From: Fibrobacter sp.
GTDB taxonomy: Bacteria; Fibrobacterota; Fibrobacteria; Fibrobacterales; Fibrobacteraceae
NCBI GenBank assembly: GCA_017412605.1
Contig: JAFPWY010000012.1
Span: 1-64,000 of the forward strand
DNA length: 64,000 bases
Direction of reading: 5' to 3'
A model generated the notes under the pieces. That model had not been told where the DNA came from, did no database searches, and saw nothing but the letters and a program-made list of their open reading frames with translations. Made by a program: the position numbers and the translations under genes. Position 1 is the first letter of the stretch, and each line of letters begins with the position of its first letter. Shown here in pieces: positions 32,683-63,684 of the stretch.

Positions 32683-34206
32683 ATGTCAAGATCTATCCTG
32701 TCTTTTATCTTTGTCCTGGTTCTTGGCGGCATGCTTTCTGCGATGGCCGCATCTCCGGTGATTGGCCCGGAAAAATCCAGGAACCTGAAACTTCTAGAGG
32801 CATCCCCGATGCTGTTCGAGTTGCATCGCCAGACAACAGGCGACCACTTGCAGTATTTTGCCTATCCCCGCCGCGATACAAATTTTATCAAGCACTTTAG
32901 TGAAACCGAAGGGACTGCGCTGCTTTATGTGGACCGTATTCCCGAAGATTCCTCCGCAACTTCTTCGCGCCCGTCGTCCTACGGCCTTGCCGCATCGGTT
33001 GTGGGTGGGGTAGACTACCGTGGGGGTAAGGCCCTTGGGGACACCATCTGGCCTGCTGCCGACGGGGGAATTTATCTGCGCGGCTTTATCGATTCGGTAG
33101 ATTTCGTCTTGGATGCTCGCATATACGACGAGGGCCATTCTGCGGATTCGGCTCGCTCGTTTGACCGCGAGTTCCTGGAGGTTCAGAAGGGGGAGGACAA
33201 TTCCGGTGTGGAATATGTGAGCTACGCCCGCTACCGTGCGCATTTCGCCTTCAACTACGACTGGCTCCGCATTGATTTTGCCCGCGACGTGATGCATTGG
33301 GGACCCGGTTACTATAACAACCTCACGCTCAACCAGTTCGCTCTTCCTTACAACATGCTCGCTATGGACATGTTCATTGGCCCCCTGCATGTGCTTACCT
33401 TCTATGGTGACCTGAGAATTTACAACAACAGCATGAGCATCAAGAACAAGGACGAGCTGCGCCACCTGTTTGGTCACCGCTATGAACTGGCTGTCGGAAA
33501 TGCGACTGTCGGCATAAGCGAACTCCAGGTGCTTTACGACAACATGAAGCCGTGGCTGTTTGTGCCCTGTGTCCCGCTGTTCATGGAAAAGGGCAATTAC
33601 AGCGAACGTTCCAATAACGGGGCGCTTGCGATGGATTTTAACTACCGTTTGTTCAACTGGATGCGCCTGTACACGGAATTCTTCATGGACGACATGGAAA
33701 GCCCGGTGAGCTTGATCAAGAACGACAATATCGAGGCCAAGTGGGCGTGGATGGCCGGTTTGCAGGCTGCGCATGATTTCAAGGTGAAGGGCAAACTGCT
33801 CGAGGCGGGGACTATTGCTGAATATGCGCGGATAGAACCTTATGTCTATTCGCATTTCATCAAGAATACGGCCCAGCTGGCTCATCTGGGGTACCCCCTC
33901 GGCAACCAGAATGGCCCGAACAGCATGGTTGTTGATTGGACGGTCTATGGGCGCTATGACGGTCGTTTCTTCGCGTCGGTGCGCAATTCCTGGTTCTGGA
34001 AGGGAACGGATTACGGCAGCGCTATCAACGATACGACACCGAAAACGGACCATATGAAAATTTCGAAGAGATTCCTGGACGGAGCCAAGATGCAGTATTC
34101 CATAACTCCGTCGTTGGGTTACGAGGGAAACTATGTTTCCTTCATGGGCGAAATCACGCTGATAAACGATGAGAAAGTTTATCTCCGCGCCGGGTTTAAG
34201 TTTTAG
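32683..34206 (+). CDS. Wzi-like outer-membrane protein (capsule assembly type)
   Basis: This 507-residue protein has a signal peptide ending A-M-A-A-S. The mature part is a large barrel-like, aromatic-rich sequence. Near residue 205 the block R-D-V-M-H-W-G-P-G-Y-Y-N-N-L resembles the capsule assembly Wzi family, in which a tryptophan-glycine-proline loop is conserved. Wzi binds exopolysaccharide at the cell surface. Assignment is by this block only. Confidence 0.6.
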   Translation: MSRSILSFIFVLVLGGMLSAMAASPVIGPEKSRNLKLLEASPMLFELHRQTTGDHLQYFAYPRRDTNFIKHFSETEGTALLYVDRIPEDSSATSSRPSSYGLAASVVGGVDYRGGKALGDTIWPAADGGIYLRGFIDSVDFVLDARIYDEGHSADSARSFDREFLEVQKGEDNSGVEYVSYARYRAHFAFNYDWLRIDFARDVMHWGPGYYNNLTLNQFALPYNMLAMDMFIGPLHVLTFYGDLRIYNNSMSIKNKDELRHLFGHRYELAVGNATVGISELQVLYDNMKPWLFVPCVPLFMEKGNYSERSNNGALAMDFNYRLFNWMRLYTEFFMDDMESPVSLIKNDNIEAKWAWMAGLQAAHDFKVKGKLLEAGTIAEYARIEPYVYSHFIKNTAQLAHLGYPLGNQNGPNSMVVDWTVYGRYDGRFFASVRNSWFWKGTDYGSAINDTTPKTDHMKISKRFLDGAKMQYSITPSLGYEGNYVSFMGEITLINDEKVYLRAGFKF

Positions 34207-36031: not shown

Positions 36032-36073
36032 AAAAATGGCGTTTTTGAAGCAAAGACGCCATTTTTGTTTTAT
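36032..36073 (+). terminator. Strong intrinsic terminator upstream of dnaA
   Basis: A nearly perfect hairpin of about 16 bp has the outer stem 36032-36042 paired with 36056-36066, extended inward around an AAG loop. It ends in a T-rich tract. It closes the transcript ending at 35975 and isolates dnaA. Confidence 0.8.
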
Positions 36074-36364
36074 GGGTACGTGCTCGTTTGTGTATAATTT
36101 TGTTGCAAAAATAATTATGGAAAAATGTCAAGGGATGGTTATAAATTTTTCTGTTGATAGAATGTGAAATTTAAGGGATGTTTTTTTGATTGGTAGGTTA
36201 TTAACTCGGTCAATGATGGTAGCTGGATTGGGGTGAAAAAAAATTTGCCCTTTTTGGGGCCATTCTGCGGGTTTTCAAAAAAAAAGGAATGTCCTCCCCG
36301 CTATGGCAAAGGCTTTATTTAATTTTTTCGTAAGTTTTTTGCTACCTATTGATTTGGAATAACT
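36067..36364. other. AT-rich gap upstream of dnaA, possible origin region
   Basis: These roughly 300 bases hold no gene. They are AT-rich with runs of A and T and two copies of AAGGGATG at 36130 and 36173. No clear cluster of canonical DnaA boxes (TTATCCACA) is visible on either strand. The position next to dnaA makes it a natural place to look for oriC, but the sequence alone does not show one. Confidence 0.25.
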
Positions 36365-37807
36365 GTGGAAAATACCGTTACTTTATTGAATTTGTCGTCG
36401 TCGCCGTGGCTTCGTGTTCTTGAGTACGTTCGGTCGAAGTGCAATGAGTTTGGTTTGGCTTTTTTGGATGCGGTCGGCTTTGAAGGTATCCAGGACGGAT
36501 ACGCCCAGCTGACCGTGCCCGACACGTTCCGCGCGACATGGCTAGATAGCCATTATGGCGATTTGTTCCGCAAGGCGTTCAGCGCCGTACTCGGTTCCGA
36601 GTTTGTTGACTACACCATCCGCCTTTTGGCTCCGTCTCCGGCTGTTCCCGAGATGAAGCTTGCTACGCCGCCGGTCGTGCGCCCGGTTGTCAAGGCTCGG
36701 GTCAAGCAGCCGGCCAGTGAAGGTCTCAAACTGTACGCCCGGTTCACTTTTGACAACTTTGTCGAGGGATCGTGCAATTCCACGGCACTTCGTGCATGCA
36801 AGACTGTTTCCGAAAATCCCGGTAACCCGTCGCTCAATCCTTTGTTTGTCTATGGGGCTTCGGGCCTCGGCAAGACGCACCTGCTGCAGTCCATTGCCGC
36901 CGACCTGGTTGCAAAAAGGCCGGAGATGCGCATTACGTACTGTCATGCCGCAGATTTCCTCCGCGATTATACGGGCATTTACAAGAAACCTTCGGAATCC
37001 CGTCAGAACCAGGAAAAGTTTGAACAACGTTATATGGGCTGCGACTGCCTGTTGCTCGATGATATCCAGTGGATAGAACAGGGCGAGAAGACGCTTGAAA
37101 AACTCTTCTCCTTGGTGGCGTACCTGCGTTCGCATGGCAAGCAGGTGGTCATCTCGTGCGACCGCCATCCTTCCAGTTTCTGTGCTGGCGAGGTGTCTAC
37201 GCCGAATCGCAAGTCGGCTATCCCGCACATCTCCAAGACCTTCCTTGCTCAGCTGGAATCCTGCGTAGCCGTTGGGCTGGACGAGCCCGATATGACGACG
37301 CGTCTGAATCTCATCGAGAAAAAATCTATGCACGTGCCTTTCGTGGACCGTGACCGCGAAGAGATTTGCCGGTTCCTCTCTGTCCCGCCGCGCAGCAATG
37401 TCCGCGATATCGAGGGGTTGATCAACTGGCTCGATGCGATGCACACTTTGAATGGTGTCGAACTGGATTTTGCCTGTGTCAAGCGGCTGATGGGCGATTG
37501 CAAGAATGGCGGTGCCGGTACGGCGCTTACCGTCAGGAGCATTGCCGATACGGTCGCGTTCCAGTTCAACGTGGATTTTCTGGCGCTTGCCTCGAAGCGT
37601 CAGGACGCAGCGGCCTCGGTCCCGCGCAAAGTGGCCATGATGCTTTGTCGCGAATATACTTCTGAGTCGCTTGTTTGTATTGGTGAAATGTTTAATCGCG
37701 ACTATGCCACTGTAATTGCCGCCTTGAAATCCCTTAAAGTGCAGATGGAAAAGGACGCTAGCCTGAGGAGGCGCGTCGAAGACATCCGCTACATGTTGGA
37801 AGCGTGA
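36365..37807 (+). CDS. dnaA: Divergent DnaA-family replication initiator
   Basis: This 480-residue protein has the DnaA domain order: N-terminal domain (1-90), Pro/Val/Lys-rich linker (91-118), AAA+ domain (about 120-375) and helix-turn-helix domain IV (about 385-480). Walker A is G-A-S-G-L-G-K-T (164-171) and Walker B is L-L-L-D-D (229-233). Two key sites differ. The box VII region that normally reads R-S-R-F lacks both arginines (E-S-C-V at about 298-301). The DNA-recognition motif R-D-H-T-T-V is R-D-Y-A-T-V (445-450). dnaN is not next to it. It may be the main initiator of this phylum or a second paralogue. It starts with GTG and overlaps the next gene. Confidence 0.85.
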   Translation: MENTVTLLNLSSSPWLRVLEYVRSKCNEFGLAFLDAVGFEGIQDGYAQLTVPDTFRATWLDSHYGDLFRKAFSAVLGSEFVDYTIRLLAPSPAVPEMKLATPPVVRPVVKARVKQPASEGLKLYARFTFDNFVEGSCNSTALRACKTVSENPGNPSLNPLFVYGASGLGKTHLLQSIAADLVAKRPEMRITYCHAADFLRDYTGIYKKPSESRQNQEKFEQRYMGCDCLLLDDIQWIEQGEKTLEKLFSLVAYLRSHGKQVVISCDRHPSSFCAGEVSTPNRKSAIPHISKTFLAQLESCVAVGLDEPDMTTRLNLIEKKSMHVPFVDRDREEICRFLSVPPRSNVRDIEGLINWLDAMHTLNGVELDFACVKRLMGDCKNGGAGTALTVRSIADTVAFQFNVDFLALASKRQDAAASVPRKVAMMLCREYTSESLVCIGEMFNRDYATVIAALKSLKVQMEKDASLRRRVEDIRYMLEA

Positions 37808-38682
37808 TGAAGGCACTGATTACGGGAGGTGCTGGCGTCGTAGGGAAGGCGCTTTGCAGGGAACTCCAGGCCCGTGGTGTGTGTGTTCGGGTCTTGGCCC
37901 TCCCCGGCGATACTTTGGCTAGTTCGCGAATCCCTTCGGGGGTGGAGCTGGTTTATGGAGACGTTACCCATTACGGTTCGCTCCGCCCCGCTTTTGATGA
38001 TGTCGACATGGTTTTTCATCTGGCGGCCATCCTCCTTTCTACGCAGCCCAGCGAGTTTGAACGGATCAATACGCAGGGGACGCGAAATGTTATATCGGCT
38101 TGCCAGGATGCGGGTGTTCGGCGCCTGCTTTACGTGTCGAGCATTTCTGTCACCTATCCGATTCTGACGCCCTATGGGCAGAGCAAACTGGACGGGGAAA
38201 GCCTTGTTCGGGAATCCGGTCTGGACTGGACCATCGTGAGGCCTACGCTGGTCATTGGCGACGGTGGCGGCATCGAGTTCAACATGTTCGCAAAATACGT
38301 GTCGCGGTTCCCGGTGTATTTCTTGCCGGGAGGGGGAATGGCGCTGAAGCGGCCTGTCCGCAGTGTCGACCTTGTCCAGGGAATTGCAGCTGCCGGGCTA
38401 GAAGAATGTGCCATCTGGAAGACGTATGCCTTGGCTGGTCCTTCGGTCATGACGATGGCGCAGATGGCGGAGGCCATTTTACGTATGCGCGGACTCAAGC
38501 ACCGGATGCTTAAACTGCCGTGGTGGCTTTGCAAGCGGCTTGCTGTTCTGAGGGCGTGGATCGGCGGAAGCAGCGTGTCTGCGGAGCAGGCCCTGGCCGG
38601 TTTCCTCTACGATGCGGCACCGTCTATCGAAAACGCAGAAAAAGACCTCGGATATCACCCGAAATCGCCTTTTGATGCATAA
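37807..38682 (+). CDS. NAD-dependent epimerase/dehydratase (extended SDR)
   Basis: This 291-residue protein has an N-terminal Rossmann motif G-G-A-G-V-V-G and D-V near 52. The catalytic pair Y-G-Q-S-K lies near 120, after Ser in V-S-S-I-S. Members act on sugar nucleotides or steroid-like substrates. The start overlaps the dnaA stop (TGATG), so it is translated with dnaA, an unexpected pairing. Confidence 0.85.
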   Translation: MKALITGGAGVVGKALCRELQARGVCVRVLALPGDTLASSRIPSGVELVYGDVTHYGSLRPAFDDVDMVFHLAAILLSTQPSEFERINTQGTRNVISACQDAGVRRLLYVSSISVTYPILTPYGQSKLDGESLVRESGLDWTIVRPTLVIGDGGGIEFNMFAKYVSRFPVYFLPGGGMALKRPVRSVDLVQGIAAAGLEECAIWKTYALAGPSVMTMAQMAEAILRMRGLKHRMLKLPWWLCKRLAVLRAWIGGSSVSAEQALAGFLYDAAPSIENAEKDLGYHPKSPFDA

Positions 38683-38768: not shown

Positions 38769-39917
38769 ATGAAATTGCACTATCTTTTGGCCGGATGCGT
38801 GGCCGCCACACTCGCCTTTACAGGCTGTGGTTCCGATTCCAGTTCTGATACTTCCATCGACCGCGAGGATGTTTCTTCCTCCTCTTCCAGCATTGAAGCG
38901 CAGTCGTCTTCGTCCAAGAAGGTGTCCTCTTCTTCTGAAAAGAAGGAAGAGCCTGATGGAGTCCGTGCGGCAACTCTCGACGACCTTTCTCGCAATATGC
39001 TGCTCGATATTGACGGGCACAATGTCCACATGGTTGCCGGATCCAAGAAGGGTATGTTCTCGTTCTGGGTCGTCGATACGGGCGAGGTGGTCGTGGTGAG
39101 TGACTTCGAGGGCGGAGTTATCTCCATTGACGAAGACAATTCTGCAACCTCCATCATCAATAAGCTGGACGATAAATATTTCCTCGCCAAGATGGCTAAG
39201 GGCATGACCATCAAGTTCACGGTGGATTCCGACACCCTACTGTATTCTGTGGATAAGGGCAAGGCCAAGGCGGTTCAGGTGGAACAGATCCCGGCCGGCA
39301 ACACCTATATCAGCAAGTACGACGATATGGTGGGCAAGAAGATTACATGCAAGTCCGGCGATACGACGGATGTCTACCGTTTCTACGATGGTCGTTACAC
39401 CATGGAAAGCTCTGCGGGTAAGAAGACTCTTCTGCTGGTGGGCGGATACGCCGATATCCATCGCGGCAAGCTTATCCTTGTGCCGGAATACTTCTCCGAT
39501 AACGTGATGTCGCTTTACATGTATGTCGTGTCCTCGTCGTTTGACCTCGATATACGAGGATGCTCCAGCGAGAAATTCAAGATCGCTAATGTCAAGGAAG
39601 CTGACCTTGCCGACAACTGGTACAGCTATGATAAGGATCTCAAGCTGGATTGGACTTTCGTCTTGCAAGATGATGGAACGTTCAATCTGGAAGGTCGCAG
39701 CAACGAGCCCGAACAGAAAAAGGCGGGTCTCTGGTCCCTTTATGGCGATGTGCTGCTGATGAGGGCTGAATCATGCCTTGACCCGAAATCTTGTGAGACG
39801 ATTGTCATGGGGAATATTGAGGACTTCGAGAAGGGCAAGGGCTTTACCTTCAAGCATTCTAGTGGAGAGGTTCCTCCGATGCCTACGGAGTGGGTTCTCC
39901 AGAAATATGAAGACTAA
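38769..39917 (+). CDS. Fibrobacter-type lipoprotein with a poly-Ser linker
   Basis: This 382-residue lipoprotein has lipobox A-F-T-G-C (Cys20) followed by Ser/Asp/Glu-rich runs up to residue 60, a feature shared with other Fibrobacter surface lipoproteins. The rest is a mixed alpha/beta region with no recognised domain. The segment with W-T-F-V-L-Q-D-D-G-T-F and G-L-W-S-L-Y-G-D is lipocalin-like in pattern but not diagnostic. Confidence 0.7.
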   Translation: MKLHYLLAGCVAATLAFTGCGSDSSSDTSIDREDVSSSSSSIEAQSSSSKKVSSSSEKKEEPDGVRAATLDDLSRNMLLDIDGHNVHMVAGSKKGMFSFWVVDTGEVVVVSDFEGGVISIDEDNSATSIINKLDDKYFLAKMAKGMTIKFTVDSDTLLYSVDKGKAKAVQVEQIPAGNTYISKYDDMVGKKITCKSGDTTDVYRFYDGRYTMESSAGKKTLLLVGGYADIHRGKLILVPEYFSDNVMSLYMYVVSSSFDLDIRGCSSEKFKIANVKEADLADNWYSYDKDLKLDWTFVLQDDGTFNLEGRSNEPEQKKAGLWSLYGDVLLMRAESCLDPKSCETIVMGNIEDFEKGKGFTFKHSSGEVPPMPTEWVLQKYED

Positions 39918-53453: not shown

Positions 53454-55406
53454 CTACAGCGGAAGTTGTCCAAAAATTCGCCAGAAGATGATTCCGACAA
53501 TGAGTGTCCCGAGATAGAAGGGCATGTAGCCGGACTGCGCGAAGCGTACCAGGTCGCCCATTTTGTGGAGTGCCTTGACCACGAAGGCGAGAAGGCCTTC
53601 GATGATGTAGTCCTGGATGAACCTTGCTGTGCGGGCGATGCCGCCGAAAACGAACTGCCGGACCACGGCGTAGTACATCTCGTCGAAGTAGAACTTGTGA
53701 TAGACCGTCTTGTACAGACGCGTACGGTTGGTCTCATCGAGGGCCTTGCTAATCTTGGCCTTGGGGCTGCAGTAGCATACCCAGGCGATGAACAGGGCTA
53801 TAAGCGCCACGGCCACGGCGATGTAAGGGAGCCACGGGAGTTCCTCGAGCTTGACTAGCTGCGGGACATGCAGGGAGCCCGGCTTGAAGTAGTGCTCGAA
53901 GAAGCCCTTGGCGATGTAGCCGCCCAGGAAACTCGGGATGGCGAGCACGACGATGGGGAGCGTCATGGCGAAGTCTTCCTTGATACGGTGACCGCGCACG
54001 AGATCGCTGCGGGGATCCCCGTGGAAGGCGAGGAAGAACATGCGGAACATGTAGAACGTGGTGAGTCCGCTCGTGAGGAGCGCGAGCGCGAATACGACGT
54101 AGTGGTGTCCCTGGAATGCCGCGAGGATGATTTCGTCCTTCGAGAAGAAACCGGAGAACGGCGGGATTCCCGAAATCGCGAGCACGCAGATGAAGCAGCA
54201 CCAGTAGGTGAAGGGCATCTTGCTCCAGAGCCCGCCCATCTTGTCAAGGTCGTTGGTGTGGACCACGTGGATGACGGAACCTGCGATGAGGAACAGGCTG
54301 CACTTGAAGAATGCGTGCGTAAAGATGTGGAATGTGGAGGCCGTCCAGCCGGTGGCGACGATGACATCGCCCATGCTGCAGACGCCGAGCGCGAACATCA
54401 TGTAGCCCAGCTGCGAGAGCGTGGAGTAGGCGAGGATGCGCTTGATGTCCTTCTGCGTGCAGGCGATGACTGCGGCAAATACCATGGTGAAAGCGCCCAC
54501 GACCATGATGATGTTGAGTGTGCCCTTGCAGACGGCGAAGAACGGGAACAGACGGGCGACGAGATAGACGCCGGCCACGACCATGGTCGCACTGTGGATG
54601 ATGGAAGATACCGGTGTCGGGCCTTCCATGGCGTTCGGGAGCCAGATATGCATCGGGAACATGGCGGACTTGCCCCAGCCACCGATGAAGATGAGCACGG
54701 CGCCGAGAATGAGCGCGTCGGCCTGCGAGATGGTGGTGATGCCCAGGTTGATGGTCGTGTGGTAGAAGTCGTGCAGGGTCAGGTCGTTGATGACGGAGAA
54801 GTCGAATGAGCCGACGATGTAGCTCACGAGCACGATGCCACATAGGAAGAAACTGTCGGCGAAGCGGGTGAGGATGAACGCCTGCTTGGATGCGCTGACA
54901 GCCGAGGGCTTGTGGTACCAGAAGCCGATGAGCAGGTAGCTGGAAACACCCACCAGTTCCCAGAAGATGAACATCTGGAAGAGGTTTGTTGCAGCAACGA
55001 GACCGAGCATAGAGAAGCTGAACAGCGAAAGAAGGCTGAAGAAGCGCCCAGCCGAGCGGTCCTTGCGCATGTAGCCGATGCTGTAGATGTTCACCATGAA
55101 GCTGATGAAGGTGACGACGACCATCATCATCATGGAAAGCGGGTCGGTTAAGAGGCCGATGTTCGCGTTGAAACCGGCGAAGGGCAGGAAGGTGAATTCG
55201 TAAGGAATCACCTTCCCTGGCGCCATCCCGGACGTGAAGTAGTCGACAGCGACGAGGATGGCGCAGACCGCCGCGATTCCGTTCCCGATGACCGCGATCG
55301 CGGCGGCACCCTTCGCCGAGCGGTTCCCGACGAACAGGCCGTTGATCACGAATACGAGTAGCGGCAGGAGGAAAATAAAGTAGCTGAGGGTAATTCCGTT
55401 AATCAT
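53454..55406 (-). CDS. nuoL: NADH-quinone oxidoreductase subunit L
   Basis: This 650-residue protein is the distal antiporter-like subunit with the long lateral helix at the C-terminus. The W-E-L-V-G-V-S-S-Y-L-L-I motif, the H-I-W-L-P-N-A-M-E-G-P-T-P-V-S block and H-A-F-F-K are clear. It starts inside nuoK (8-base overlap). Confidence 0.95.
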   Translation of the reverse strand: MINGITLSYFIFLLPLLVFVINGLFVGNRSAKGAAAIAVIGNGIAAVCAILVAVDYFTSGMAPGKVIPYEFTFLPFAGFNANIGLLTDPLSMMMMVVVTFISFMVNIYSIGYMRKDRSAGRFFSLLSLFSFSMLGLVAATNLFQMFIFWELVGVSSYLLIGFWYHKPSAVSASKQAFILTRFADSFFLCGIVLVSYIVGSFDFSVINDLTLHDFYHTTINLGITTISQADALILGAVLIFIGGWGKSAMFPMHIWLPNAMEGPTPVSSIIHSATMVVAGVYLVARLFPFFAVCKGTLNIIMVVGAFTMVFAAVIACTQKDIKRILAYSTLSQLGYMMFALGVCSMGDVIVATGWTASTFHIFTHAFFKCSLFLIAGSVIHVVHTNDLDKMGGLWSKMPFTYWCCFICVLAISGIPPFSGFFSKDEIILAAFQGHHYVVFALALLTSGLTTFYMFRMFFLAFHGDPRSDLVRGHRIKEDFAMTLPIVVLAIPSFLGGYIAKGFFEHYFKPGSLHVPQLVKLEELPWLPYIAVAVALIALFIAWVCYCSPKAKISKALDETNRTRLYKTVYHKFYFDEMYYAVVRQFVFGGIARTARFIQDYIIEGLLAFVVKALHKMGDLVRFAQSGYMPFYLGTLIVGIIFWRIFGQLPL

Positions 55407-63553: not shown

Positions 63554-63660
63554 TACCCCCAATTTATTTAAATATTTGGCAACCCATTTGCCTTTTTTTC
63601 TAAAAAAACGAAAAAATAAGATATTCTGTGTTGTTCGGGGGTGCTTTACGTTTTGTGAAT

Positions 63661-63684
63661 AAAAAAAGGGCAACGACGTTGCCC
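63661..63684 (-). terminator. Intrinsic terminator of the right-edge minus-strand gene
   Basis: A GGGCAAC-GAC-GTTGCCC hairpin (63668-63684) is followed, on the minus strand, by a run of seven T. It ends the transcript of the tandem-repeat gene. Confidence 0.8.

Follow-up and report, generated by a model that had tools for sequence, protein, structure and literature searches.

The prevailing view of DnaA is of one initiator protein that assembles with itself. Canonical members of the family (TIGR00362; E. coli, B. subtilis 8btg, and A. aeolicus 2hcb) have four domains, Walker A and B motifs, sensors 1 and 2, a domain I Trp, and a helix-turn-helix. The arginine finger R285 reaches the ATP of the neighboring subunit (PMC6727663), the DnaA box is contacted by R399, D433, H434, T435, and H439 (PMC7561715), and a form of E. 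coli DnaA that lacks domain I still unwinds but cannot load DnaB (PMC5448010). Two dnaA copies were recorded in 2011 for Fibrobacter, as for Chlamydia, Lawsonia, Desulfovibrio, Salinibacter, and Pirellula, in a study that only counts copies (PMC3080875). In the literature on two-dnaA genomes, we found neither finger loss nor complementary domain loss described, and a division of labor between the Fibrobacter paralogs appears to be new.

Here we describe the second DnaA (DnaA2) of a Fibrobacter sp. genome, encoded in a window of 64,000 nt. DnaA2 shares all of the canonical features listed above but lacks the arginine finger, has lost K243, has changed box-reading residues, and carries an insertion ahead of box VII. 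Like Hda, it is a DnaA-like AAA+ protein distinct from the initiator; however, Hda has neither domain I nor domain IV and acts via its finger, whereas both domains are present in DnaA2, and the Fibrobacter protein lacks the finger. With the Hda model TIGR03420 it scored 52.9 bits (cutoff, 194.8), which places it outside Hda, and with PRK12422 (NCBIfam), which we take to be the Chlamydia-type DnaA model, it scored 111 bits (cutoff, 657). The hetero-oligomeric AAA+ complexes of eukaryotes, ORC and the clamp loader, in which paralogous subunits divide the labor and some lack a finger or ATPase, offer an analogy only, with no claim of homology.

Altered residues in the window DnaA

The open reading frame was confirmed, and its product is a full-length DnaA with all domains. 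Pfam matched Bac_DnaA at 140.7 bits (gathering threshold, 23) and Bac_DnaA_C at 59.9 bits (gathering threshold, 31.5). The DnaA_N match was weak; domain I scored 21.3 bits with PF11638 in the genome search (curated cutoff, 24.6), and its W15 is invariant. The AlphaFold2 model (mean pLDDT, 77.8) has the DnaA fold, and the best structure and sequence matches in the PDB were DnaA of Bacillus, Thermotoga, and Aquifex. The TIGR00362 score of 301.3 bits is below the equivalog cutoff of 343.9; DnaA1 of the same genome scored 462. The features of the gene are as follows.

36365..37807, + strand: dnaA2, 480 aa, GTG start; the second DnaA paralog of the genome
36407..36583, + strand: domain I (PF11638, residues 15-73), with the conserved Trp (E. 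coli W6 = W15)
36854..36877, + strand: Walker A GASGLGKT, intact in the alignment with E. coli DnaA
37049..37069, + strand: Walker B LLLDDIQ, intact in the same alignment
37082..37084, + strand: position of E. coli K243, here Gly; G, S, or A in 45 of 46 genus DnaA2
37184..37225, + strand: insertion ahead of box VII (AGEVSTPNRKSAIP), genus specific; model confidence low
37238..37276, + strand: box VII (TFLAQLESCVAVG), with R281 replaced by Thr292 and the arginine finger R285 by Gln296
37397..37417, + strand: sensor 2 NVRDIEG, intact (E. coli R334 = R347)
37595..37612, + strand: minor-groove loop KRQDAA, with E. coli R399 replaced by Gln413; Q in 46 of 46 genus DnaA2
37697..37723, + strand: DNA-recognition helix RDYATVIAA, with H434Y, T435A, and H439A; D433, T436, and V437 retained

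Residues were compared in an alignment on E. coli DnaA of 29 DnaA1 and 69 DnaA2 proteins, the latter comprising 46 from the genus Fibrobacter and 23 others. Arg occupies the finger position R285 in 29/29 DnaA1 and in 21/23 nongenus DnaA2 but in none of the 46 genus DnaA2, where Pro, Gln, His, or Asn takes its place; nine further DnaA1 also keep it, for a total of 38/38. Genus Fibrobacter DnaA2 have lost R281 as well, and most DnaA2 have lost R227. At the position of K243, which we take to adjoin the ssDNA-binding motif in E. coli, 39 of the 46 genus proteins have Gly. Tyr replaces H434 in 46/46 genus and 20/23 other DnaA2. This change is old and the finger loss younger, since H434Y is common to most DnaA2, whereas the finger, completely lost in the genus, is kept by most other DnaA2 of the alignment. 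The invariance in 46/46 genus proteins of Tyr at H434, Gln at R399, and Val at L290 excludes a chance match. All 69 DnaA2 of this alignment retain the Walker A Lys, the Walker B Asp, D269, the sensor 2 Arg (R334), and W6, and sensor 1 of the window protein is intact.

A sequence-only reading of the window had proposed a DnaA with an altered arginine finger, and this was borne out, although its pairing of R-S-R-F with E-S-C-V was 2 to 3 residues out of register with the positions given above. It had also asked whether an arginine might be present at a shifted position. The insertion ahead of box VII is variable in the genus (14 to 20 aa), and its Arg and Lys residues are scattered, vary among relatives, and occupy no invariant position. 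A shifted arginine was thus rejected as a conserved feature; a substitute that is confined to a single species and is not conserved is possible. The intact Walker motifs and the RDYATV motif of domain IV were as the reading described them; R399Q, H439A, and P423V, a further domain IV change, had gone unmentioned, and in all, the box-contact residues R399, D433, H434, T435, and H439 are Q, D, Y, A, and A. The suggestion that the protein would oligomerize differently is well supported by the loss of R285, R281, and R227. A normal motif shared by all Fibrobacterota DnaA had been named as a finding that would speak against the reading; DnaA1 proteins share that motif, and DnaA2 proteins do not.

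The dN/dS ratio of dnaA2 is 0.04 to 0.18, indicating purifying selection, and the possibility of a pseudogene was rejected on this ground. The closest named relatives of the window protein are from “Fibrobacter sp.” MAGs (87 to 94% identity). Horizontal acquisition was also rejected: a similarity search with the window protein found no foreign relatives, and the best non-Fibrobacter matches are ordinary DnaA proteins at ~30% identity.

Two paralogs and complementary domain loss

The second DnaA suspected in the sequence-only reading does exist: of the 15 contigs of the genome, C8 carries a canonical DnaA1 (C8:19053) and C12 carries the window DnaA2. Nearly all of 167 Fibrobacterota genomes, which include MAG assemblies in which genes may be missed, have at least two DnaA proteins. 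At ≥90% completeness and ≤5% contamination, the single-DnaA genomes are G143 (98% complete), with DnaA1 only, and G036 (96%), with DnaA2 only; assembly gaps are possible in both, and with one paralog each they leave obligate pairing unproven. In a tree of 73 proteins, all 40 DnaA2 fall on one side of a branch with SH-aLRT support of 98, and a tree built from domains III-IV with 94 rows gives the same DnaA1/DnaA2 branch (SH-aLRT, 98); both trees were quick searches without bootstrap. Since both paralogs occur in deep families, they separated no later than the sampled phylum arose, and the window protein is a member of a DnaA2 clade that is old and spans the phylum. This age, together with purifying selection and the changed motifs, argues that DnaA2 is neither decayed nor a standard initiator. 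One DnaA1-type protein (L021, G020:C198) groups with a Bacteroidetes MAG DnaA, away from its own family, which may reflect contamination, transfer, or a long-branch effect.

Domain I has been lost from DnaA1 in two places. In genus code g21 (family f7; G007, G008, G009, G013, and G014), DnaA1 is 345 to 355 aa long and starts at domain III; in g4/g2 (family f1; G043, G051, G054, and G056), it is 342 to 344 aa. Each shortened DnaA1 has a stop codon 2 to 28 codons upstream of its first start. The two groups are separate in the tree, and each is surrounded by relatives whose DnaA1 is full length. DnaA2 of these same genomes fills 82 to 83 of the 86 domain I columns. When eight g21 and g4/g2 genomes were searched with PF11638, domain I was found in DnaA2 alone, apart from weak non-DnaA matches (E, 0.02 to 0.7), and in control genomes G000, G101, G005, and G032 it was found in both paralogs. 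Both g4/g2 proteins (L345 to L352) are strongly derived. Their DnaA1, besides lacking domain I, no longer has R281 and in most cases lacks the sensor 2 Arg as well; their DnaA2 keeps domain I and has lost the finger and the sensor 2 Arg, with Walker B Asp mostly replaced by Asn, and is probably ATPase dead. Across these sequences, the paralogs have degenerated in complementary ways, with the finger kept by every DnaA1 and domain I by every DnaA2. Because Fibrobacter DnaA1 still has its domain I, only other genera show complementary domain loss directly.

Upstream regions, neighborhood, and predicted origin

The following features flank the dnaA2 reading frame.

36032..36066, + strand: terminator-like hairpin of 16 pairs and a T-rich tail, ending the upstream transcription unit; a similar hairpin is present in relatives
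36126..36159, + strand: conserved element TGTCAAGGGAT-N15-TGTTGATA, the sole perfect match in the genome; TGTTGATA is a DnaA box of the TTATCAACA type
36364..36372, - strand: DnaA-box-like TTTTCCACA, overlapping the GTG start; TTATCCACA in some relatives
37804..38682, + strand: NAD-dependent epimerase/SDR gene, with its start overlapping the dnaA2 stop (TGATG); the neighbor in most of the genus

With the hairpin ending the upstream unit, dnaA2 probably has its own promoter; a sigma-70 and terminator scan of the promoter region gave nothing above shuffles. TGTTGATA lies at about -215 to -230 of dnaA2, preceded by TGTCAAG, and is conserved in the genus; many other Fibrobacterota have TGTGGATA or TGTTGATA at a similar place. 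A genome-wide regulon of the -240 element was rejected, as dnaA2 alone matches it perfectly in each genus genome. The gene order U32 peptidase, small ORF, dnaA2, epimerase, lipoprotein-like ORF is shared by most of the genus and, in part, by related genera. The epimerase gene that the sequence-only reading had called coupled does overlap dnaA2, and translational coupling of the two genes is likely. Upstream of dnaA2, between PilT-like and U32 peptidase genes, the window also holds a 507-aa ORF (32683-34206) without a Pfam match, whose position is conserved in the genus and in related genera. The same reading had remarked that dnaN is absent beside dnaA2. The absence is real, but it carries no evidential weight because Fibrobacter dnaA1 does not adjoin dnaN either; only deep lineages keep yidC-dnaA1-dnaN, with DnaA1 in the order parA-rsmG-mnmG-mnmE-yidC-dnaA1-dnaN (mnmG named by position).

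In the single-contig relative G144, the sign of the sampled GC skew switches near 1.43 Mb; dnaA1 (0.79 Mb) and dnaA2 (2.39 Mb) lie elsewhere, so neither dnaA gene is at the origin, and dnaN is at 1.35 Mb. The skew minimum falls at the same rsmG-parA-parB-bactofilin genes (named from reading of the sequences, without a family search) in G000 (C2, 76 kb), G101 (C2, 827 kb), and G144. We predict that oriC is likely this region beside rsmG-parAB, far from both dnaA genes. In Fibrobacteraceae (G144 and the genus), dnaA1 is gone from the origin locus, parAB has remained, and dnaN is 16 to 80 kb off. The candidate oriC, an intergenic stretch past bactofilin, has a conserved AT-rich palindrome and a TGTTGAWR array, and some loci also have a TGTGGAWA box. 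TGTTGAWR occurs 52 times in 19 candidates, versus 2.9 ± 1.9 times in shuffles (control motif, 1 versus 1.6); one protein query used in finding the loci was approximate, being 88% identical to the true protein, and served for locating them only. The candidate of G144 is the densest TGTKGAWR site in 120 kb, but in G000 and G101 other stretches match or exceed the candidate in density. Clusters of the canonical TTATNCACA box were not decisive as a locator; skew, conserved synteny, and the footprint located the candidate. G000 has two more DnaA-box-like clusters (C2:66848-67086 and 53941-54328; four sites per 250 to 400 bp) on its origin contig, which lie ~10 and 22 kb away from the minimum of the skew and may be titration sites. 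Exact TTATNCACA boxes also occur in the window at 39248-39256 (-) and 63654-63662 (-), as TTATCCACA and TTATTCACA, in or beside ordinary genes.

Both dnaA promoters and the candidate oriC have a TTATCAACA-like box in common, and in all three a shifted box, TTWTCAACA, replaces TTATCCACA. The dnaA1 promoter of the genus carries an inverted TATCAACA/TGTTGATA pair in 10/11 cases; this pair was found once per genome in 5/6 genomes searched, the spacing in G000 being wider than the pattern allowed. DnaA1 and DnaA2 are thus probably both connected to this type of box. It is possible that the window DnaA2 binds a different origin sequence, as the sequence-only reading had suggested, and either DnaA could read the shifted box.

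A proposed two-part initiator and other possible roles for DnaA2

We hypothesize that DnaA1 and DnaA2 make up an initiator of two subunits, with DnaA2 as the partner that bears domain I but no finger, a proposal that we hold to be evenly poised between right and wrong. DnaA1 would be the ATPase and origin-reading subunit bearing the arginine finger, and DnaA2, which retains domain I and the helix-turn-helix, would bind ATP. Without a finger, Fibrobacter DnaA2 could receive another subunit's finger at its own ATP but could not engage the ATP of the next. It may join DnaA1 physically at oriC to form a mixed complex, in which it would be an end or adaptor subunit, supply domain I for helicase recruitment, and limit or orient the filament of DnaA1, possibly by capping it; both dnaA genes and oriC would be read through the same TTATCAACA-like box. 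Given the complementary losses and the role of domain I in E. coli, one complex with shared work is the simplest reading. Where DnaA1 lacks domain I, it might alternatively recruit helicase through domain III or another protein.

DnaA2 could instead be a dedicated negative regulator that binds ATP and boxes and either caps the DnaA1 filament or titrates boxes at oriC and the dnaA promoters, a role filled elsewhere by Hda, SirA, or box titration. The loss of the finger, R281, R227, and K243 in genus DnaA2 with the ATP-binding motifs kept, the DnaA-box-like sites in both dnaA promoters, and the probably ATPase-dead DnaA2 of g4/g2 would all fit. However, a pure inhibitor leaves unexplained why domain I was lost twice from DnaA1 and never from DnaA2, and Hda acts through its own finger, which Fibrobacter DnaA2 does not have; we judge this role unlikely while still taking it seriously. 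We give less credence still to a DnaA2 that left initiation and now serves mainly as a transcription factor, derived from DnaA but with a DNA specificity of its own. The conserved replacement of R399, H434, T435, and H439 in the genus, a promoter of its own with a conserved element, and evolution faster than that of DnaA1 are in its favor, but domain I and the complete ATP site are strongly constrained, no regulon is visible for the promoter element, which only dnaA2 has, and domain I has been lost from DnaA1 in other lineages. Long branches and lost catalytic residues might even suggest a decaying duplicate without function, but this is scarcely credible for a gene kept across the phylum at the dN/dS values given above, with invariant derived residues and a conserved upstream element. 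That the protein is not used for initiation, as the sequence-only reading had allowed, is less likely than that reading supposed, since in two lineages domain I is left only in DnaA2.

Extended to the phylum, the two-subunit proposal would have Fibrobacterota initiate replication with an obligate pair, DnaA1 contributing the finger and ssDNA binding and DnaA2 contributing domain I and the filament end or orientation, with the origin away from both dnaA genes in Fibrobacteraceae and TTWTCAACA as the box. We offer this wider version tentatively, as somewhat more doubtful than the pairing itself. If true, it would be a hetero-oligomeric bacterial counterpart of ORC. A finger and a helicase-recruiting domain split between paralogs would show that bacterial initiation can become heteromeric, and nature would have provided a system in which the roles of the arginine finger, domain I, and box recognition can be told apart. 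Concrete predictions of oriC and of its box are gained for Fibrobacter, whose members are major rumen cellulose degraders.
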